Positions 1,483-16,737 of a DNA stretch of 64,000 nt are shown in pieces. The position numbers and the translations under genes are program-made. The stretch covers positions 2,555,001 through 2,619,000 of the forward strand of contig NZ_CP078143.1 of the NCBI RefSeq assembly GCF_019891395.1. Reading direction: 5' to 3'. The DNA is from Nitratireductor kimnyeongensis. GTDB taxonomy: Bacteria; Pseudomonadota; Alphaproteobacteria; Rhizobiales; Rhizobiaceae. Each line of letters opens with the position of its first letter. Within the stretch, counting starts at the first letter, position 1. The notes beneath the pieces are model-generated. The model made no database searches, had not been told where the DNA came from, and saw nothing but the letters and a program-made list of their open reading frames with translations.

Positions 1483-2145
1483 TTATGGAGCCTGCGTCAC
1501 CGCAAACCTTACAATTCCAGTGACCGTAACTTCCTCAGATTCTCCGTTATCAAGCGCCAACGGTGCCTGATGCTTGGGATCGTATGAACGCGGCCAGAGC
1601 CAGCGCCTTCCTTCTCCGTCGACTACAAACTCTTTTAGTGTGGCTTCGTATAGGCCATCACGGTTGCGTCTGTTCACCAATACATACTGTCCGTTCTTGG
1701 GCTCTATGCCATTCAGGATGGTTGGCTGAACGTATACAACCGTACCCTCGCCATAAATTTTATTCATTGACGACCCGCGGACACGAAATCCTTTCACATC
1801 TACATTCTCCAGACCCAATGGCGGCGTCAAAGCCACTTCGATTTGATCATCGTGTTCCCATTCTATCGCTTCCATCCAGACACCTGCTTGAACTTCCCCA
1901 ACAATACGGTACGTCCGCGGCGGCGATCCTCCAGCCCCTAGAGGAACCACTTCTTCGAGGCCACGTCCGGCCGTTCCCGCCAGTTTGTTTATTCGGTCCC
2001 AATGTTCGCCGGAAGGCACGTTTTCTCCGCGCTCCCATTTTGATACCCGCCCCTGGCTTGCCTTTATTGCGTTGGCAAACTGAACCTGTGTCAAGCCGAG
2101 CGCTTCCCTGATCTTTTTTACGCGATCCGCGTAGTCATTCTTCAT
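1483..2145 (-). CDS. LexA/CI-type prophage repressor (HTH + S24 peptidase)
   Basis: A 220-residue protein. Residues 1-60 form a Cro/CI-type helix-turn-helix (TQVQFANAIKASQGRVSKWERG). The C-terminal half is an S24 self-cleaving domain: an Ala-Gly cleavage site in EVQAGVW, the nucleophile serine in RGSSMNKIYGEGT and the general-base lysine in YEATLKEF. By family knowledge such repressors keep a prophage silent and cleave themselves when RecA is activated by DNA damage. The start at 2145 is chosen because AAGGAG lies 7 bases upstream; a longer in-frame extension to 2247 crosses the promoter region. It is flanked by operators on both sides, so autoregulation is likely. Confidence 0.93.
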   Translation of the reverse strand: MKNDYADRVKKIREALGLTQVQFANAIKASQGRVSKWERGENVPSGEHWDRINKLAGTAGRGLEEVVPLGAGGSPPRTYRIVGEVQAGVWMEAIEWEHDDQIEVALTPPLGLENVDVKGFRVRGSSMNKIYGEGTVVYVQPTILNGIEPKNGQYVLVNRRNRDGLYEATLKEFVVDGEGRRWLWPRSYDPKHQAPLALDNGESEEVTVTGIVRFAVTQAP

Positions 2146-2173
2146 ATCTGAACTCCTTGCTTTATGCGGGTTC

Positions 2174-2269
2174 GTATATCGCGATATGCGTTTACGGCCT
2201 GCTGTGGATAAAGTCAAAATGCGATATAGCATATTTCCGCTTGACAAAATAGGCGAAAACGCATAATCC
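2174..2269. promoter_or_regulatory. Divergent control region between repressor and early operon
   Basis: The rightward promoter is TTGACA (2241-2246), 17 bp, TAATCC (2264-2269), with the operator variant AGGCGAAAACGCAT (2251-2264) in its spacer. A second operator variant, ATGCGATATAGCAT, is at 2219-2232. On the minus strand TTGACT (2212-2217) is a candidate -35 for the repressor with a weak -10. A further palindrome centred on TATATCGCGATATG is at about 2174-2190. The arrangement matches a CI/Cro-type switch. Confidence 0.75.
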
Positions 2270-2328
2270 TAATGGCGTAGTTAACGAACTGTACCACACA
2301 CCATTACCACCACTGAGGAGAGTTCAAG

Positions 2329-2577
2329 GTGAGAACCAAGGACGCGGTCCGCGCAATGCGGGCAAACGGCAAGCCATTTGCCGCTATTGCCGAAAGCCTC
2401 GGCATCAGCCTACAGCACGCATATAAATGCGCCTCCGACATCATTCCAGGGCCGGCTATCGGTCCAACAAGGCGAACGGTTGTTCGCTACGGAGCACACA
2501 ACGGCGGCTGCTCAACTCTTTCCGGGATGATCCCAGTCAGTCTTCCCCGCATTTCAGCAATCGATGGAGCCGCATGA
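2329..2577 (+). CDS. Small HTH protein, possible Cro-like regulator
   Basis: An 82-residue protein, first gene of the rightward operon. It starts after TGAGGAGAGTTCAAG, whose first base is not ATG: the start is GTG at 2329. The N-terminal half (AVRAMRANGKPFAAIAESLGISLQHAYKCA) reads as a helix-turn-helix. Its position directly opposite the repressor suggests a Cro-like or early regulatory role. The C-terminal half has no recognisable motif. Confidence 0.65.
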   Translation: MRTKDAVRAMRANGKPFAAIAESLGISLQHAYKCASDIIPGPAIGPTRRTVVRYGAHNGGCSTLSGMIPVSLPRISAIDGAA

Positions 2578-2789
2578 TGGACGGTATGATTCCAAACGGC
2601 ACCGAAGTTGTCGTGTATTTCCGCGGCAGAATTGCTGGTCGAAGCGATTTCGAGAATGGCGGAGAAAGTTATCTCATAGAACACACGAGGAAGGGCAAAA
2701 CGGTGCGCGAATGGGTTGTCGCCGACAAGGTTTCGCTGGCCGCAGTGGAGCAGGCAGCCGCCGAAACGAAGGAGCGCAAGGATGGCTAA
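2574..2789 (+). CDS. Hypothetical phage protein
   Basis: A 71-residue protein starting at ATG 2574 in an ATGA overlap with the previous stop; ATG 2577 and 2586 are alternatives. It is predicted to be mostly beta strand followed by an acidic/basic C-terminal helix (EQAAAETKERKDG). No family is recognised. The tight coupling to both neighbours is the main coding evidence. Confidence 0.65.
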   Translation: MMDGMIPNGTEVVVYFRGRIAGRSDFENGGESYLIEHTRKGKTVREWVVADKVSLAAVEQAAAETKERKDG

Positions 2790-2973
2790 CCCGATGGCAT
2801 ACGCAACAAAGATGACGCGCACCGGAGAGCGCGACATGTCAAACCGCAAGCCGTACCGCACGGCGAAGCAGAAGGCCGAAGCAAAGCGCACCGCTGTACG
2901 CGGAGAGGATGGAGTTTACCGCTCCGGAGCGCCGGTTTCGTTCCATCGGGGAGGGCGCGGCAATGCACGGTGA
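2782..2973 (+). CDS. Small basic hypothetical protein
   Basis: A 63-residue, lysine/arginine-rich protein (PYRTAKQKAEAKRTAVRG) from ATG 2782 with GGAG/AAGG upstream. It overlaps the preceding gene by 8 bases and the following one by 11. It may be nucleic-acid binding by composition; no family is recognised. Confidence 0.55.
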   Translation: MANPMAYATKMTRTGERDMSNRKPYRTAKQKAEAKRTAVRGEDGVYRSGAPVSFHRGGRGNAR

Positions 2974-3226
2974 TTTTGCGGATCTGGGCTGCCTGGTGCG
3001 GCACGTTATGAACCCGGCAATCGTCGGTGTCGTGATCGGTTACGAGGGATCACTGGTGCTTGTTCGTCTGGCCAGCATGCAGGTCATCAAGCTGCACGAA
3101 TACGAACTTACGGCGGCCGGTGATGATGGCGAAGGTGAGCCGGCGTTGGTCGATGAAGACGACAACGTCATCGATTTTACGAAAGCGCGCGATCTGCGCA
3201 CTGCAAAAACGCGAGGAGCTGCGTGA
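2963..3226 (+). CDS. Hypothetical protein with SH3-like beta start
   Basis: An 87-residue protein from ATG 2963, with a GGGGAGGGCG ribosome site upstream. Its first half (NPAIVGVVIGYEGSLVLVRL) has the alternating hydrophobic pattern of a small beta barrel, and the second half is strongly acidic. It ends in a TGATG overlap with the next gene. The function is unknown. Confidence 0.65.
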   Translation: MHGDFADLGCLVRHVMNPAIVGVVIGYEGSLVLVRLASMQVIKLHEYELTAAGDDGEGEPALVDEDDNVIDFTKARDLRTAKTRGAA

Positions 3227-4188
3227 TGGCAAAGTTCAAGGTTGGAGACAAGGTGCGGTTCACGGACAAGTGCTGCCGGTCATGGTGGTTCGGGCCGCAT
3301 ACGGCGCACAAGGAAGGCGTGATTTCAGGACTCAATGGGCTGGGAACCTATGAATACCAGGTTTGTGTCGATGTGGAGCAAAGAGTAGGCAATGTCGACG
3401 ACGAGCACATCGAACTGATTGTGCCGTCCTTCAAGGTTGGGGATCGCGTCGTGCCGTCAGACAAAGCCGGGACCGACCTGATCGATCACTGGAATGAATA
3501 CTGGAGTGAATTCGGCGAATACGAGGGCGCGTTCTTCGTTACGGAGATCAACTCCAGAGGTGACATCAAATACAGTAGCAAGCCGGGTGGCGATGGTCCC
3601 CACTTCATCCCCGCCGACTGGATGACTCCCGCGCCGCTCAAGCTTGAGGCCGGCAAGTATTATCGAACGCGCAACGGCAAGCGTGTCGGGCCGCTTATGA
3701 AAGGCTGGGCGCCGCACCTGTTCGGCTCGCAGGGCTACAGCCTAACTTCAGAGTGGTACAGCGACGGGCGGCGCAATAGCGGATGGGAAACCGACCTCGA
3801 CATCGTCGCGGAGTGGCCGTCCGACAGTGACGATACCAACAACGGTGTGTGGCGGTCGGCCGGATTCTTCCTCGATGCACCAGAATCGACCACCAACTGC
3901 ATCGTTGCGCTGATCGAGAACGGCCAGCCCAAACCTGCGACCCATCCATACGTCCATCCAAGCCGCAATAAGGCAGAGACGGAAGCGGGCCGCCTTGCGC
4001 GCAAGCACAAGGGGCGCGAGTTCGGAGTTTACGAGCTCGTTGTCACGAAGCAGGAGCAGGCGAAGCACGAGTGGCAGCGGCTCGCTTTGGATGGGCAGAC
4101 CATTGATGCAATCAAGAAGCTGCGCGAGATTGCCGGCATGTCCTTGAGGGCCGCCAAGGCAGCCGTTACCGATTGCCGCGCCGCCTAA
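3226..4188 (+). CDS. Phage protein with two KOW/SH3-like segments and an L7/L12-like C-terminus
   Basis: A 320-residue protein. FKVGDKVRFTDK near residue 4 and FKVGDRVVPSDK near residue 70 are paired SH3/KOW-like starts. The middle is rich in aromatic residues without a known motif. The last about 30 residues (IDAIKKLREIAGMSLRAAKA) closely resemble the C-terminal helix-loop-helix of ribosomal protein bL12. The start ATG 3226 overlaps the previous TGA. It may act on the ribosome or translation factors, but this rests on the short C-terminal resemblance only. Confidence 0.65.
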   Translation: MAKFKVGDKVRFTDKCCRSWWFGPHTAHKEGVISGLNGLGTYEYQVCVDVEQRVGNVDDEHIELIVPSFKVGDRVVPSDKAGTDLIDHWNEYWSEFGEYEGAFFVTEINSRGDIKYSSKPGGDGPHFIPADWMTPAPLKLEAGKYYRTRNGKRVGPLMKGWAPHLFGSQGYSLTSEWYSDGRRNSGWETDLDIVAEWPSDSDDTNNGVWRSAGFFLDAPESTTNCIVALIENGQPKPATHPYVHPSRNKAETEAGRLARKHKGREFGVYELVVTKQEQAKHEWQRLALDGQTIDAIKKLREIAGMSLRAAKAAVTDCRAA

Positions 4189-4255
4189 CCAACCACACAC
4201 ACCACAACCGAAACCACCCGCTTGCGCCATGCGCAGGCGGGAAAGGGGAGAAACC

Positions 4256-10070: not shown

Positions 10071-10411
10071 TGCTGCAGGAGGTCCATTATCGGCGGCGCA
10101 TCAACGAGCTTGAAACAGAAGTAGAGCGGCTGCGGCAGGGAAGGGAAGAAGACTCCCGTCTTTCTGCCCCTCTGGCTTGGCGGCTTACACCCAAGGAAAA
10201 CATCGTCGCAGCAAAACTAGCAACACGCGAAATAGCAACGATCGAAGCGCTCTGCGTCGAGGCAGACTGCGCCGAAGACACACTGCGGGTTTTCATTTCG
10301 CGCATGCGCAAGAAGCTGGCGCCGGCCGGCTACACGATCCGGAATGTGTTCGGTCGGGGTTATGTGGTGAATGACAGGGCGCGGTTAAAGAGGGAGATGC
10401 AGGGTGCTTAA
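10070..10411 (+). CDS. Winged-helix regulatory protein (OmpR-type C-terminal domain)
   Basis: A 113-residue protein. A short coiled coil (RRRINELETEVERLRQG) precedes a winged helix: LTPKENIVAAKLA, then DTLRVFISRMRKKLAPAGYTIRNVFGRGYVV, which matches the DNA-binding domain of response regulators. There is no receiver domain. It probably acts as a small phage transcription factor. It overlaps the helicase start by 8 bases. Confidence 0.75.
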   Translation: MLQEVHYRRRINELETEVERLRQGREEDSRLSAPLAWRLTPKENIVAAKLATREIATIEALCVEADCAEDTLRVFISRMRKKLAPAGYTIRNVFGRGYVVNDRARLKREMQGA

Positions 10412-13202
10412 GCTTCGCGATTATCAGCGGGACGCAGTGGATTCGCTATACGAATACTGGGGTGAAAAGGCCGGCTCTCCATTGATCGTACTGCCTACCG
10501 GTTGCCACGCCAAAGGTACGGGCATCCTGATGTATGACGGATCGGTTAAGCCCGTGGAAAGTGTGGCTGCAAACGACAACGTCATGGGGCCTGACAGCAA
10601 GCCGCGTCGCGTTCTGCGGACGATACGCGGTGTTGAGCCAATGTACGAAGTCGCGCCGAAGAAAGGCGATCCGTTTGTCGTCAACGAAAACCACATCCTG
10701 AGCCTGAAGGCTACGAACGAAGGGAAGAAGGCCCTGCGTTATCCCAACTCGCACCGCAAAGGCGGCGAGTTGGTTGAGATAAGCGTCAAGGACTATCTCG
10801 GCAAGCCTAAGTATTTTAAACACCTTCACAAGCTATGGCGCACTGGTGTCGACTTTCCGCAGGCCGGCAATGACAACTACCCGGTTCCGCCATACATTCT
10901 AGGTGCATTTCTTGGTGACGGAAGCACCACTCACAGCGCTGCTTTCACCGGCATGGATCCGGAAGTGCTGGACGCCGTTTGCGATTTTGCGGAGTCGGTT
11001 GGTGTTCGGCTGCGTGTCAACCAGAAGCCAAACAATCGTGCCTGGTCTGTCTACTTTCCAGACGATCAATCGAATTGCGTCACTCGTAATCGCTTTGTCG
11101 CGCGCCTAGAGGCGGCTGGCATCTGGGGAATGCGCTGCGAAGAAAAGAGTGTTCCGCATTCGTACAAGACGGGATCGCGCAAAGTTCGTCTCGATGTTCT
11201 TGCCGGCCTGCTTGACACGGACGGCCACCTGTCCAAGGGCAATCATTTCGATTTCATTTCGAAGTCACGCCGCCTATCCGGTGATGTTGTTTTCTTGGCG
11301 CGAAGCCTTGGGCTCGCAGCATACATGGGTGCGTGCGAGAAGCGCTGTCAAACCGGCGGAGGTGGAACCTATTGGCGGGTGTCCATTTCAGGCGATGTCG
11401 ACGTGATCCCGAACAGGGTTCCGAGACAGAAGGGAACTGCGCGAAAGCAGATCAAGAATCCGTTGGTGACGGGCTTCTCGGTCTCGCCTGTTGGCGTCGG
11501 TGAGTTTTTCGGATTCGAGCTCGATGGTGACCACCTCTATCTCACGGACGACTTCACGGTCCACCACAACTCTGGCAAAAGCTTGGTTCTTAGCACGATC
11601 TGCAAAGAGCTGGTCGAAAACTACCCCGACATGCGCATTCTCAACGTCACGCATGTACGGGAGCTTATCCTTGGCAACTACAAGGAGCTGCTGAACATCT
11701 GGCCCTTTGCTCCGGCTGGGATTTTCAGCGCTGGTGTCGGTCGCCGCGATGCACATTCGCAAATCATCTTCGGCGGTGTTCAGACAATCGCGAGCAAGAC
11801 CGAACTGATTGGCCACATCGACCTTGTCACGGTCGACGAGGCGCACCTGATGCCACGCAAATCTGAAACGCAATACGGGCAGCTATTGTCCGGCCTGCGT
11901 GAAATCAATCCGGACCTGAAGCTGATGGGGCTGACCGCGACGCCATATAGGCTTGGCGAAGGGCAGCTGCATGAGGGCGAAGGCGCGCTATTCGATGACA
12001 TCTGCTACGAGATGCCGATTGGCGACATGATCGACCAAGGCTACCTATGCAAGCCGGTCAGCAAGGGCATGGTCGCAGGCTTCGATCTGTCTGGTGTCGG
12101 CAAGCTTGGCGGTGACTACAAGCAGAAGGCGCTGCAGGCCGCCGTTGATAAGATCGACGTAAACCGCGCCGTGGTTGACGAAATCGTCAAGTATGGAACG
12201 ACGCCGGGAGCGGAGCGTAAGGCGTGGCTGATGTTTTGTTCCGGTGTAGAGCATGCGCTGCATATCCGGGATGAAATCCGCGACCGTGGCTTTACGTGCG
12301 AAACCATCACGGGTGAAACACCAGCGGCGGAACGCGACCGCATCCTGAACGACTTCAAGGCGGGCAAGATTCGCGCTCTGACGAATAACTCTGTCCTGAC
12401 CACCGGCACCAACCTGCCTATCATCGACCTTGTTGCTTTCTTGCGGCCGACGCTATCGGCTGGCCTTTATGTCCAGATGGCAGGTAGGGGGCTGCGCCTG
12501 TTCCCAGGCAAGGAGGATTGCCTGTTTCTGGATTTCGCTGGAGTGGTGCGGAAGCACGGGCCAATTGATGCGGTTATCCCGCCGCACGAGCGCAAGGGCG
12601 ATGGAGAAGCACCTATCAAGCAGTGTCCGGAAACGGAAACCGATGCGCACGACAACAAAGGCTGCGGGTCGCTGGTGCACGCTAGCGCGCGCGTTTGTCC
12701 TGATTGCGGCTTTGAATTCCCGATCGACACCGCGCCGAAGATTAAGGAAACGGCGGAAGACACACCAATCCTCTCCAAAGGAGAGCCCACCTGGCGCGAA
12801 ATCGTCAGCCGCCGCTTCGACTTCCACGAGGGAAAAGGCAACAAGCCGCCATCCGTCAAGGTCACGTACATGGCCGGCCTCACCGCGATGCGTGAGTGGT
12901 TGTGCCCGCAGCACACGGGGTTTGCCAAGAGCAAGGCAGACCGGTGGTGGATCAAGCACGGCGGCGAGCGGCCGTTTCCGAAGACGGTCATGGAGTGGCT
13001 CGAACGACAGAACGAATTGCTTGAAACCGCACGCATTTCGGTGCGGCCGAGCGGTCGATACTGGGACGTTGTCGGGCACGAGCCGGGTGACAAGCGGCAG
13101 TTTGCCGAGCCCGTTGCGGAGACGCGGGATATGGAGCCTGCGAACGATAACGGGCCGGGTCATGCAAGCTGGGATGAGCTGGACGACGCAATACCGTTCT
13201 AG
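10404..13202 (+). CDS. DEAD/DEAH-type superfamily 2 helicase interrupted by an intein
   Basis: A 932-residue precursor from GTG 10404. Extein residues 1-33 (QRDAVDSLYEYWG...LPTG) and the part from SGKS onward form a split Walker A motif. The remaining helicase has VDEAHLM (motif II), LTATPYR (motif III), LTNNSVLTTGTNLP and QMAGRGLR (motif VI), then a C-terminal zinc ribbon (CPETE...CGSLVHASARVCPDCGFEFP). After splicing the host protein would be 576 residues. It is a phage replication/recombination helicase by family. It follows the nuclease and small regulators in one operon, and carries a PANDNGPGH motif near the end. Confidence 0.92.
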   Translation: MLKLRDYQRDAVDSLYEYWGEKAGSPLIVLPTGCHAKGTGILMYDGSVKPVESVAANDNVMGPDSKPRRVLRTIRGVEPMYEVAPKKGDPFVVNENHILSLKATNEGKKALRYPNSHRKGGELVEISVKDYLGKPKYFKHLHKLWRTGVDFPQAGNDNYPVPPYILGAFLGDGSTTHSAAFTGMDPEVLDAVCDFAESVGVRLRVNQKPNNRAWSVYFPDDQSNCVTRNRFVARLEAAGIWGMRCEEKSVPHSYKTGSRKVRLDVLAGLLDTDGHLSKGNHFDFISKSRRLSGDVVFLARSLGLAAYMGACEKRCQTGGGGTYWRVSISGDVDVIPNRVPRQKGTARKQIKNPLVTGFSVSPVGVGEFFGFELDGDHLYLTDDFTVHHNSGKSLVLSTICKELVENYPDMRILNVTHVRELILGNYKELLNIWPFAPAGIFSAGVGRRDAHSQIIFGGVQTIASKTELIGHIDLVTVDEAHLMPRKSETQYGQLLSGLREINPDLKLMGLTATPYRLGEGQLHEGEGALFDDICYEMPIGDMIDQGYLCKPVSKGMVAGFDLSGVGKLGGDYKQKALQAAVDKIDVNRAVVDEIVKYGTTPGAERKAWLMFCSGVEHALHIRDEIRDRGFTCETITGETPAAERDRILNDFKAGKIRALTNNSVLTTGTNLPIIDLVAFLRPTLSAGLYVQMAGRGLRLFPGKEDCLFLDFAGVVRKHGPIDAVIPPHERKGDGEAPIKQCPETETDAHDNKGCGSLVHASARVCPDCGFEFPIDTAPKIKETAEDTPILSKGEPTWREIVSRRFDFHEGKGNKPPSVKVTYMAGLTAMREWLCPQHTGFAKSKADRWWIKHGGERPFPKTVMEWLERQNELLETARISVRPSGRYWDVVGHEPGDKRQFAEPVAETRDMEPANDNGPGHASWDELDDAIPF
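10503..11570 (+). mobile_element. Intein with LAGLIDADG homing endonuclease
   Basis: In-frame insertion of 1068 bases (356 residues) inside the helicase P-loop: LPTG before, SGKS after. The first residue is Cys, the block-B histidine is in VNENHIL, and the end is VHHN followed by Ser. Two dodecapeptide motifs are visible, ILGAFLGDGS and VLAGLLDTDG, so the endonuclease looks intact. Inserting at the catalytic loop means the helicase is inactive until the intein excises. Confidence 0.92.
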
Positions 13203-14495: not shown

Positions 14496-14730
14496 TGAAA
14501 TCGACAGCGAGGTCGCAGAGATGCTGGGGCACGCGCCTCGTGCGACTTACCAGCCGCGTGGATTCGGCTTGTGGGTCAAGGGCAGCCACCCGCCTGTTGC
14601 AGCGCAACGGGCGGGGATGTGGACAGACTACGAGCCGGATTACGACGCTTACATCGCAGAGACGGATAGCCTAGAAGAGAACATGGCCCGCGTGGCAAGC
14701 TATGACGATTGGTTCGTGGAGGAGGAATGA
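14485..14730 (+). CDS. Acidic hypothetical protein
   Basis: An 81-residue, strongly acidic protein. HAPRATYQPRGFGLWVKG resembles short beta-rich accessory proteins; the end is DDWFVEEE. Its stop overlaps the methyltransferase start, so translation is coupled. It could be a DNA mimic by charge, but nothing specific supports this. Confidence 0.6.
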   Translation: MSHDEIDSEVAEMLGHAPRATYQPRGFGLWVKGSHPPVAAQRAGMWTDYEPDYDAYIAETDSLEENMARVASYDDWFVEEE

Positions 14731-16430
14731 CAAATCAACTGTTTCTCGACGGCCGCGTCGAACTTCGCCCCGGTGATTGCCGCGACGTTATCAAGGCGAT
14801 GCCGGATAATAGCGTGGATGCGGTCGTGACAGACCCTCCTTACGCGCTGGTTTCCATCCAGAAGAGGTTCGGCAAGCCAGGTAGTGCCGCAGCGCAACAT
14901 GGTACAGACGGCCTGTATGCCCGCGCCAGCGCCGGTTTTATGGGGAAGCAATGGGATACGGGCGAGACCGCATTCGCTGCCGAGTTCTGGGCCGAGGTGC
15001 TGCGTGTGCTCAAGCCGGGTGGACACGTCGCAGCATTCTCAGGAACGCGAACCTATCACCGCATGGCGGTTGCCATCGAGGATGCGGGGTTTGAAATCCG
15101 CGATCAGCTTGCGTGGTGCTACGGGTCGGGCTTCCCGAAAAGTCATGCAGTCGATGTCGGTCTGTGGAAGGGAGTATTGAATTGCCAATCGAAAGAATCT
15201 GCCCCGCTTGTGGTGCAACTTTCAGCGTTTACCCATCTCAAATCAAGCGAGGCGAAGGAACATATTGTAGCCGCGCCTGCTCTAATCCTGCCAGAGGGCG
15301 TTCCGGCGCTGATAATGGAAATTGGAAAGGCGGGCGGTTCATCAGAAGTGACGGTTATGTCGCTGTCGGAATCGGAGGCGGGAAATATCAGCTTGAGCAC
15401 AGGCTGGTCATGGGAGAGCAACTTGGTAGACCGCTCCGAACCGAGGAGCATGTACACCACAGAAACGAACGCAAAGCAGATAACGACAGCAAAAACCTGG
15501 AAGTCACTAACGTCGTTGATCACGCGAAAATCCACGCTCCGCAGCGTGACCCTTCAAAATGGGTGGACGTGGCCTGCAATCACTGTGGCATCAAGTTCCA
15601 AAGACGGAAATACGAACAAGAACGCCATCCCGATTCTTACTGTTCTAGAAAGTGCTACGTGGAATCCCGTCGCGCAGGCTAAAGGTACAGGTACTTCTCT
15701 GAAGCCGAGTTGGGAACCAATCTGCCTTGCCCGCAAGCCGTTGATCGGCACCGTTGCTGAGAACGTGCTGGAGCACGGCACGGGGGCGCTGAATATTGAT
15801 GGGTGTCGGGTGGGTGATACGGTAGAAACATGGCCCGCGTCGCGTAGTTATGGGCCGGGGCAGTTACAGCCGGGCGGCAAGGGGAAAACGCAGGCAACTG
15901 GAGCAGTGCCCGCTGGCCGCTGGCCAGCCAACATCGTGCATGACGGCAGCGAAGAGGTTGTTGCATGTTTCCCAGATGCCCCCGGACAGCAGCGCCAAGT
16001 TGGTCCGCAGCACGGCGCAAAAACGAGCGTAAACACCTACGGCGATTACGGTCCACGCGATGATTTCGCCCCGCGTCTGGACTCTGGATCTGCTGCCCGC
16101 TTCTTCTACAGCGCCAAGGCCGACAAGAACGACCGGCTTGGCAGCAAGCACCCGACCGTAAAGCCGGTCGATCTGATGCAGTGGCTTGTGCGACTCGTCA
16201 CACCGAAGGGCGGGTTGGTTCTTGACCCGTTCGCCGGCAGCGGAAGCACCGGCGAAGCGGCTTGGCGCGAAGGCATGCGTTGCATTCTTGTCGAGCGCGA
16301 GGAGGAATACCAAGCCGACATTGCGCGCCGCATGGAGCTTGCCGACAAGGGGCCGGCAACGCGGAAGGCAGCTACAGCACGACCCGCCAACGATAACTTG
16401 CCTTTGTTTGGTAACACCAATGCAGCATGA
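14727..16430 (+). CDS. DNA methyltransferase (N6-A/N4-C type) carrying an HNH gene in another frame
   Basis: A 567-residue frame from ATG 14727 (GGAGGA upstream). Motif IV is VVTDPPYALV, and the SAM-binding motif is LDPFAGSGSTGEAAW near the C-terminus, the order of a beta-class enzyme. Between GLWKG and GTGTSLKPSWEP the frame runs for about 170 codons through unrelated sequence that encodes an HNH protein in the +2 frame. The methyltransferase frame has no stop there. Relatives of this family have these two conserved pieces directly joined (WxGWGTALKPxxEP). The C-terminal DNLPLF resembles a clamp-binding motif. Activity with the insertion is uncertain. Confidence 0.88.
   Translation: MTNQLFLDGRVELRPGDCRDVIKAMPDNSVDAVVTDPPYALVSIQKRFGKPGSAAAQHGTDGLYARASAGFMGKQWDTGETAFAAEFWAEVLRVLKPGGHVAAFSGTRTYHRMAVAIEDAGFEIRDQLAWCYGSGFPKSHAVDVGLWKGVLNCQSKESAPLVVQLSAFTHLKSSEAKEHIVAAPALILPEGVPALIMEIGKAGGSSEVTVMSLSESEAGNISLSTGWSWESNLVDRSEPRSMYTTETNAKQITTAKTWKSLTSLITRKSTLRSVTLQNGWTWPAITVASSSKDGNTNKNAIPILTVLESATWNPVAQAKGTGTSLKPSWEPICLARKPLIGTVAENVLEHGTGALNIDGCRVGDTVETWPASRSYGPGQLQPGGKGKTQATGAVPAGRWPANIVHDGSEEVVACFPDAPGQQRQVGPQHGAKTSVNTYGDYGPRDDFAPRLDSGSAARFFYSAKADKNDRLGSKHPTVKPVDLMQWLVRLVTPKGGLVLDPFAGSGSTGEAAWREGMRCILVEREEEYQADIARRMELADKGPATRKAATARPANDNLPLFGNTNAA
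15182..15682 (+). CDS. HNH endonuclease gene nested in the methyltransferase gene
   Basis: A 166-residue protein in a different frame, start TTG 15182 chosen because GGAAGGGAG ends 8 bases upstream. An N-terminal knuckle (CPACGATFSVYPSQ...YCSRAC) is followed by an HNH of the LEHRLVMGEQLGRPLRTEEHVHH type with NLEVTNVVDHAK after it, then a second knuckle (CNHCGIKF...YCSRKC). It is a typical phage homing endonuclease of the HNH_3 kind. It fills essentially the whole insertion, leaving no room for an intron. Confidence 0.88.
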   Translation: MPIERICPACGATFSVYPSQIKRGEGTYCSRACSNPARGRSGADNGNWKGGRFIRSDGYVAVGIGGGKYQLEHRLVMGEQLGRPLRTEEHVHHRNERKADNDSKNLEVTNVVDHAKIHAPQRDPSKWVDVACNHCGIKFQRRKYEQERHPDSYCSRKCYVESRRAG

Positions 16431-16737
16431 CCCATCAACCTGCATCTGCACCCGCCACGCCGTTGGCATCGGCGTCGGCAACCCCAAAAGCCCGCAGTGG
16501 CTGTGCAAGGAGTGCGTCATGGCGTTCGACGACCTGTCACGCATCAAGCGTCCCACCGCTTACGAGCTGAAGGCGAGGGAGGGTGGCATGGCAGCAGCCG
16601 CGCCGCTTGTGAAGGAGTTTGGCCCGAATCTGAGCCAGTGGAGCGAGGAGCAGGTGCTGCTGTTCGTCGGGGCGGTCTGGAAGGGCTGCGCTGATCGGTT
16701 GAGGGAGCTTATCAAGGAAAGCGAGGCACCATTCTGA
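16420..16737 (+). CDS. Small cysteine-containing phage protein
   Basis: A 105-residue protein overlapping the methyltransferase end by 11 bases. CICTRH and WLCKECVMAF suggest a zinc-binding loop; the rest is helical (SQWSEEQVLLFVGAVWKGCA). This layout matches DUF6511-type phage proteins of unknown role. Confidence 0.65.
   Translation: MQHDPSTCICTRHAVGIGVGNPKSPQWLCKECVMAFDDLSRIKRPTAYELKAREGGMAAAAPLVKEFGPNLSQWSEEQVLLFVGAVWKGCADRLRELIKESEAPF

Follow-up and report, generated by a model that had tools for sequence, protein, structure and literature searches.

An HNH endonuclease gene overprinted in the open frame of a phage DNA methyltransferase gene, a probable homing element that spares its host without splicing

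The 64,000-nucleotide stretch of the Nitratireductor kimnyeongensis genome analysed here (the window) contains a DNA methyltransferase gene whose reading frame stays open across a complete HNH endonuclease gene lying in its +2 frame. We consider it probable, at roughly 0.85, that the HNH is a homing endonuclease and that overprinting, without splicing, is how its host gene is spared. According to this explanation, a mobile homing-endonuclease element would reside in a phage methyltransferase gene, with the HNH protein translated from its own internal start in one frame and the methyltransferase translated through the same DNA in the other, carrying about 171 extra residues in a hypervariable loop; splicing would play no part. 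Selection on the host gene would purge host-frame stops, amino-acid selection would act mainly on the HNH, and the element would spread when alleles without it are cut and it is then copied in by repair. From the sequences we infer that the window DNA yields both proteins, with the enlarged methyltransferase active and the HNH able to cut the uninterrupted site.

The HNH gene and its host

The features of the locus are as follows.

14727..16430, plus strand: host gene, DNA methyltransferase of the N6/N4 type, 567 codons with the insert counted in (ORF, PF01555, phrog_67)
14832..14843, plus strand: DPPY motif of the methyltransferase, 5′ of the insert; D36-Y39 nearly invariant in the alignment
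15171..15683, plus strand: insert, 513 nt = 171 codons; no stop in the methyltransferase frame; nucleotide identity to the viral relative L008 steps at both ends
15182..15682, plus strand: HNH endonuclease ORF, 166 aa, +2 frame of the host; probable TTG start, TAA at 15680-15682
15395..15535, plus strand: HNH core, EHR...VHHRN..D.N...NL...H...H, from 43 aligned sequences
16230..16247, plus strand: FAGSGS motif of the methyltransferase, 3′ of the insert; F502 and neighbours nearly invariant in the alignment

In the ORF translation, the methyltransferase frame runs without a stop from the ATG at 14727 to the stop at 16428-16430. Its product matches PF01555 (97.7 bits against a cut-off of 26.7) and phrog_67 (E 4e-70), has DPPY ahead of FxGSGS as expected of a beta-class N6/N4 DNA methyltransferase, and has a predicted structure similar to CcrM and other DNA methyltransferases. 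The nearest relatives of the gene are from Rhizobium and Mesorhizobium. The surrounding genome is 4.05 Mb, and since the window holds terminase, portal and tail fibre genes, the region is most likely a prophage. Three homing-type elements lie inside 7 kb of it: an in-frame intein with Hint and LAGLIDADG domains in a helicase gene (10404-13202), the overprinted HNH, and a free-standing HNH gene (PF01844; 16826-17269) about 400 bp past the methyltransferase.

The ORF containing the HNH, as listed, spans 15113-15682, with TTG 15182 as the probable start, and takes up all of the insert except about a dozen bases. The insert boundary is placed to within about one codon, between GGA (15171-15173) and GGT (15684-15686), and because 171 whole codons were inserted the methyltransferase frame is kept. 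The HNH protein matches PHROG HNH families (best E 1e-21), its Pfam HNH_3 match lying below the cut-off (16.4 vs 24.8 bits). In 43 aligned HNHs, E72, H73, R74, H92, H93, N95, D100, N101, N105, H114 and H118 are invariant, and zinc-ribbon-like CxxC pairs stand close to both protein ends, so that the window protein has the HNH motif and zinc-binding CxxC pairs of HNH homing endonucleases. Its predicted structure (pLDDT 85) has its best match in I-HmuI (PDB 1u3e), whose fold it may share. The ORFs, PHROG and PF01555 matches thus bear out the earlier note, made from the letters of the window, which had described an HNH gene in the +2 frame of an open methyltransferase gene.

Homing genes are often found in introns and inteins, and T4 gene 60 is an example of a translational bypass element. 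We regard it as very unlikely that a reduced self-splicing intron, an intein or such a bypass eliminates the insert prior to or during protein synthesis, although the same prophage holds a real intein in its helicase gene and the codons at the two insert ends both encode Gly (GGA, GGT). Rfam covariance models gave zero matches in 14600-16500 at E values up to 10, and no intein (Hint) domain was found in the host frame of the insert by the same search that detects the helicase intein. The earlier note had named proof of removal by an intron or bypass as an outcome that would tell against it; neither an intron nor an intein was found in the insert. The HNH ORF leaves only about a dozen insert bases free for such a device. 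Neither removal at the RNA level nor bypass would require the host frame to be open, whereas stops in that frame are in fact avoided, as described below. In the AlphaFold model of the host protein, the insert lies mostly at pLDDT 25-47 between two core strands at 84-97; overall confidence in the model is low (mean pLDDT 57.7, with 315 of the 567 residues, some outside the insert, scoring under 50), and the predicted 171-residue loop is probably disordered.

Alleles without the insert and the insertion site

The earlier note had proposed a search for methyltransferases without the insertion, and relatives were found in which GFPKSH runs on to GWGTALKPAWEPI, indicating that the interruption is real. 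The segment from GFPKS to ARKPL is hypervariable: it spans 30 to 169 aa where relatives lack an HNH insert, and reaches 261 aa in two proteins that carry an insert, P0038 and P0114. At the DNA level, the uninterrupted allele L114, which comes from a genome of the same family, has the sequence TGG CAA GGA TGG GGC ACA GCG CTC AAG, where the window reads TGG AAG GGA, the insert, and GGT ACT TCT CTG AAG. The window has thus gained 171-172 codons, and one TGG of L114 is without a counterpart.

Members of the main HNH family occupy two insertion sites. One, at profile position ~146, is used in the window, L008 and L007; in the remaining embedded loci, the methyltransferase half before the HNH extends to 164-171 and the half after it resumes from 142-159 (181 in L047). 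At this second site, that of the published ShiLan element, about 16 codons (ALKPxxExxxxAxKP ... PxxxPIxxARKPL) are present both before and after the HNH, a repeat that is absent in the window (profile 146|146). The repeat may have arisen by duplication of the target, so that a complete strand is present downstream of the HNH. PMC11855218 notes the repeat at the ShiLan insertion and considers it a possible sign of an intron.

The host-frame translation of the window insert recurs at the same length in eight other database proteins with 62-73% identity, and in three more at 43-45%; these are ORF-based records and so biased to open frames. The DNA of the window-site relatives L008 and L007 shows in both cases a +2-frame HNH within a host gene that stays open, other carriers of the window-type insert being known from protein sequence alone. 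No methyltransferase with the insert but lacking the HNH frame was therefore found among these two, a result that favours the earlier note, against whose reading such a gene would count.

Several searches traced the spread of the element. The insert gave zero blastn matches in phage records, and tblastn with the window HNH against phages gave 94 records, 16 with query cover of at least 80%. A profile search of genome contigs with the HNH alignment returned four loci, one of them embedded (L087); three were taken into the 85-locus set described below, the one outside it being L090, a 36-residue match. Among 397 genomes of the window's order, six weak HNH matches (at most 49% identity) were found besides the window copy. 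The element was absent in the best 80 of 576 methyltransferase relatives, a scan whose ranking favours uninterrupted genes.

Stop codons are avoided in the host frame

The set of 85 loci (79 + 3 + L001, L003 and the window) was gathered on HNH similarity alone, and embedding was scored afterwards by methyltransferase homology in both flanks. Such homology was found on both sides of the HNH in 51 loci, which are mutually related and include near-duplicates. In all 51 the flanks are in one phase, the host codons begin one base after the HNH codons, and the host frame passes through the HNH without a stop; L043, an additional locus, is truncated upstream of the HNH. Among the loci without such flanks, 31 of 33 have stops in the host-phase frame, the exceptions being L073 and L089.

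For the stop test, 15 near-duplicate loci were removed (12 embedded, 3 not), and L034, whose HNH is broken, was left out. In the remaining 38 non-redundant embedded HNHs, no host-frame stop was observed against 49.4 ± 5.0 expected when synonymous codons were permuted within each gene (2,000 runs, the lowest giving 33), and against 213 expected when codons were drawn by third-base composition. By comparison, 30 non-redundant non-embedded HNHs had 125 host-phase stops against 120 expected. In the third frame, used as a control, the embedded HNHs had 334 stops against 362 ± 13 expected and the non-embedded HNHs 176 against 225, and this small deficit in both groups indicates that other weak biases exist. 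The non-embedded figures stem from a run in which the groups were defined by zero stops; the stop test with that grouping is circular and was replaced by the flank-based definition. The embedded elements range from 37 to 66% GC.

Taken by itself, the open frame of the window is weak evidence and not decisive; across the family the evidence is strong. The earlier note had put the chance of such a frame at about 3 in 10,000, a figure that equals (61/64)^171. With the HNH protein and its codon usage fixed, P is 0.07 (20,000 permutations); with third-base composition alone fixed, P is 0.003 (1,000 draws). The note had offered two alternatives, a loop tolerated under dual coding or an open frame selected so that splicing is not needed, and this reading is supported by the 51 of 51 open hosts and by the stop avoidance.

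That the methyltransferase is dead, its open frame being a product of chance or a by-product of codon usage, would fit the P of 0.07 for the window and the persistence of an HNH in a broken host in L093 and L094. We nevertheless give this little credence, given 0 against 49 expected stops in 38 elements, the lack of any such deficit in non-embedded HNHs, and an excess of changes at host third positions in the flanks of the window and L008 (81 of 150 upstream, 62 of 132 downstream). In L034, one nonsense codon breaks the HNH, yet the host frame is open across 753 aa, a pattern that a maintained host gene with a dispensable parasite would produce. Of the 51 host ORFs, five have no DPPY-like motif and seven no FxGSG-like motif (L029 has neither); four of these 11 loci are cut by a contig end. 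Judging from the absent motifs, some hosts may be inactive.

Constraint falls mainly on the HNH, and the element is mobile

Between the window and L008, 10, 3 and 22 substitutions fall at the first, second and third HNH codon positions, and the two are 95.8% identical when read in the HNH frame but 84.8% in that of the host. Across the 51 loci, the HNH is more conserved than the host frame in 1266 of 1275 pairs, which are not independent. Given the higher HNH identity and the substitution pattern, amino-acid selection acts for the most part on the HNH, and what is selected in the host frame is above all that it stays open. This corrects the dual coding suggested in the earlier note: host-frame amino acids are less conserved than those of the HNH, and it is chiefly openness that is kept.

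The same data weigh on the suggestion that the insert, translated in the host frame, forms a domain of use to the enzyme, perhaps in target recognition, and is selected for its sequence beyond mere openness. Its 62-73% identity in eight proteins and the extra domains held by the loop in other alleles are in its favour, but the conservation of the HNH over the host frame in nearly all pairs, the concentration of substitutions at HNH third positions, which are host second positions, and the predicted disorder of the insert make it hardly probable.

In three blocks of the insert, the window and L008 are 91-95% identical in nucleotide sequence, while successive flanking blocks are 61, 62, 84 and 68% identical upstream and 73, 71 and 57% downstream. 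The element is thus less diverged than its host genes in this one close pair, and a similar contrast between insert and flanks is seen in L001/L055 and L003/L024. This difference (91-95% against 57-84%) indicates that the element is mobile and, as far as sequence comparison can tell, has moved between long-diverged alleles.

The HNH start

A ribosome-binding-like site is visible at the insert border of the window.

15168..15174, plus strand: AAGGGAG, Shine-Dalgarno-like, 7 nt ahead of the TTG; motif class enriched in relatives

A start codon lies close to the HNH start in 48 of the 51 embedded HNHs. A Shine-Dalgarno core stands 15 to 5 nt upstream of such a start in 36 of these 48 (26 of 37 non-redundant) and is absent in the other 12, compared to 11% in control draws of other start codons in host genes. 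The published phage Bipolar has GGAGG four bases 5′ of a GTG. For the ShiLan HNH, PMC11855218 places the start at a GTG lying 18 bp inside the insertion, reports no detectable ribosome-binding site and proposes leaderless initiation.

Other nucleases, phases and counterexamples

Nucleases of other kinds are overprinted in the same methyltransferase family. A second HNH family, A6, occupies other inserts in L014, L017, L095 and L097, a zinc-ribbon HNH-like type is found in L046 and L097, two more HNHs lie in the +1 phase (L016 and L045), and L011 and L021 have an antisense nuclease. The main HNH family, A6 and the L046 type are all in the +2 phase. The second elements of L016 and L045 have no host-frame stops against 7.1 and 6.0 expected (0 of 2,000 permutations in either case). 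Taken singly, the A6 members and L046 give P values of 0.03 to 0.54 for the open frame, which is weak evidence. Relatives of the second L045 nuclease were found at six loci, embedded in its own contig only. Two loci of a second methyltransferase family (phrog_1008/27243), L059 and L065, have an HNH in the +1 phase with the host open (P 0.12 and 0 of 2,000, respectively), and in the plasmid locus L144 a gene of that family is uninterrupted across the site.

The antisense genes are the following.

L011, 1700-2455, minus strand: antisense nuclease gene in the loop after DPPY; host frame open
L021, 1445-2257, minus strand: antisense nuclease gene in the loop after DPPY; host frame open

Their proteins are 30% identical over 246 aa (E 9e-36), and their host-frame shadows have no similarity (E 2.6). 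Neither gene contains a codon that would stop the host frame (P 1.5e-3 and 2e-4), and the L011 protein matches phage HNH and homing endonuclease families (phrog_559, 3e-9). By tblastn in phages, the antisense protein gave three weak partial matches only, and in viral contigs only its own contig. The host-frame translation at the antisense locus gave zero tblastn matches in phages and only its own contig among viral contigs; the idea of a wider host-frame family for the antisense-bearing loop was dropped on the zero tblastn matches.

Eight loci hold an A6 relative. In L091, L092, L095 and L096 a methyltransferase lies on both sides with the host open; L097 has an open frame and is cut upstream; L098 is outside any methyltransferase. 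In L093 and L094 (26-27% GC; about 2850-3750), the HNH lies between methyltransferase halves without an open host frame, and the host gene is broken or in pieces. Both of these loci also shift frame near HPTVKP. Openness is the rule in the studied loci and not a law.

Three further arrangements were observed. In L097 (1-1117), two nuclease genes in tandem, the first by eye of the L046 type and the second of the A6 type, lie under one open methyltransferase frame. The L040 methyltransferase (1526-4249) has a region that by eye resembles an intein, with a CLDEQT start and a VTGN end before S, for which no Pfam intein match was found; an HNH ORF in the +1 frame (2145-2651) overprints its middle, perhaps making it an intein with an out-of-frame endonuclease. 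In P0042, P0058 and P0067, protein sequences only, inserts near RFFYSAKAD resemble the host-frame shadows of L046 and A6.

Somewhat more tentatively than for the window itself, we favour the view that overprinting is a recurrent and general harmless lifestyle of homing endonucleases in a host gene, beside introns and inteins, taken up by several nucleases in different loops and in the +2, +1 and antisense phases, with the host open and sometimes two nucleases in one gene. On the same view, the second target copy at the ShiLan site may be likened to the recoded rescue of a synthetic gene drive.

Significance and comparison with known systems

A selfish gene that inserts into coding sequence is usually assumed to require a splicing device if its host gene is to be spared. 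The family-wide signal indicates that the open host frame under the nuclease gene is selected and long maintained, even at 37% GC, so that how a parasitic gene avoids killing its host gene becomes testable from sequence alone. Serine/threonine-rich inserts that annotations assign to methyltransferases may also be explained in this way, and the loci provide natural cases of two long proteins encoded on shared DNA, twice in antisense.

One split-gene homing endonuclease is MobE, found in nrdA of phage Aeh1. Like the window element, it interrupts a host coding region without an intron; unlike it, the window host is one open frame, and L093 and L094 are closer to the MobE type. I-HmuI is an intron-encoded HNH homing endonuclease of a phage, whereas the window element is without a detected intron. 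Inteins share with the window an invaded host gene, an open host frame and a homing nuclease, but the window insert has no splicing domain and its nuclease is out of frame.

The closest known arrangement is the ShiLan domain, described in a 2025 paper on out-of-frame HNH insertions in phage methylases (PMC11855218), so that what the earlier note called an unusual way of hiding a selfish gene had already been published. In our literature search of papers other than preprints, this was the paper whose title or abstract describes the arrangement. Going by the available parts of these sources, a forerunner found the insert but did not recognise its nature (PMC9957025), an announcement reports one case of an out-of-frame HNH in a methylase (PMC12613952), and a 2025 preprint by Gosselin et al. 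on actinobacteriophage inteins, cited by PMC11855218, may overlap. Pacc40 gp60 and Applejack gp54/gp55 also have an out-of-frame HNH in a phage methylase (PMC11855218, PMC12613952); as compared by description only, they differ from the window in being from actinophages, and the Pacc40 methylase and HNH are different ones.

The window locus shows the features of an out-of-frame HNH insertion of the ShiLan type, with a complete HNH ORF, a stop-free host and no intron or intein detected. As far as the available ShiLan description goes, the two share a homologous HNH (~50% identity), the methyltransferase family, the relative frame, zero host-frame stops, the absence of an intron or intein, and a patchy spread. 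Taken strictly, by site and target repeat, the window falls outside that type: its element is inserted about 20 codons upstream (profile 146 vs 164-171) without the ~16-codon repeat, lies in a prophage related to Rhizobium/Mesorhizobium methyltransferases, and has a visible Shine-Dalgarno-like site. A word search of the PMC11855218 text for synonymous, selection, antisense, Proteobacteria and metagenom found none of them. The window element is a sister lineage of the published ShiLan kind, and relative to the text of that paper available to us, the stop-avoidance test, the frame under selection, the ribosome-binding sites and the clean site without duplication are new, as is the spread over other nucleases, other phases and a second host gene family.
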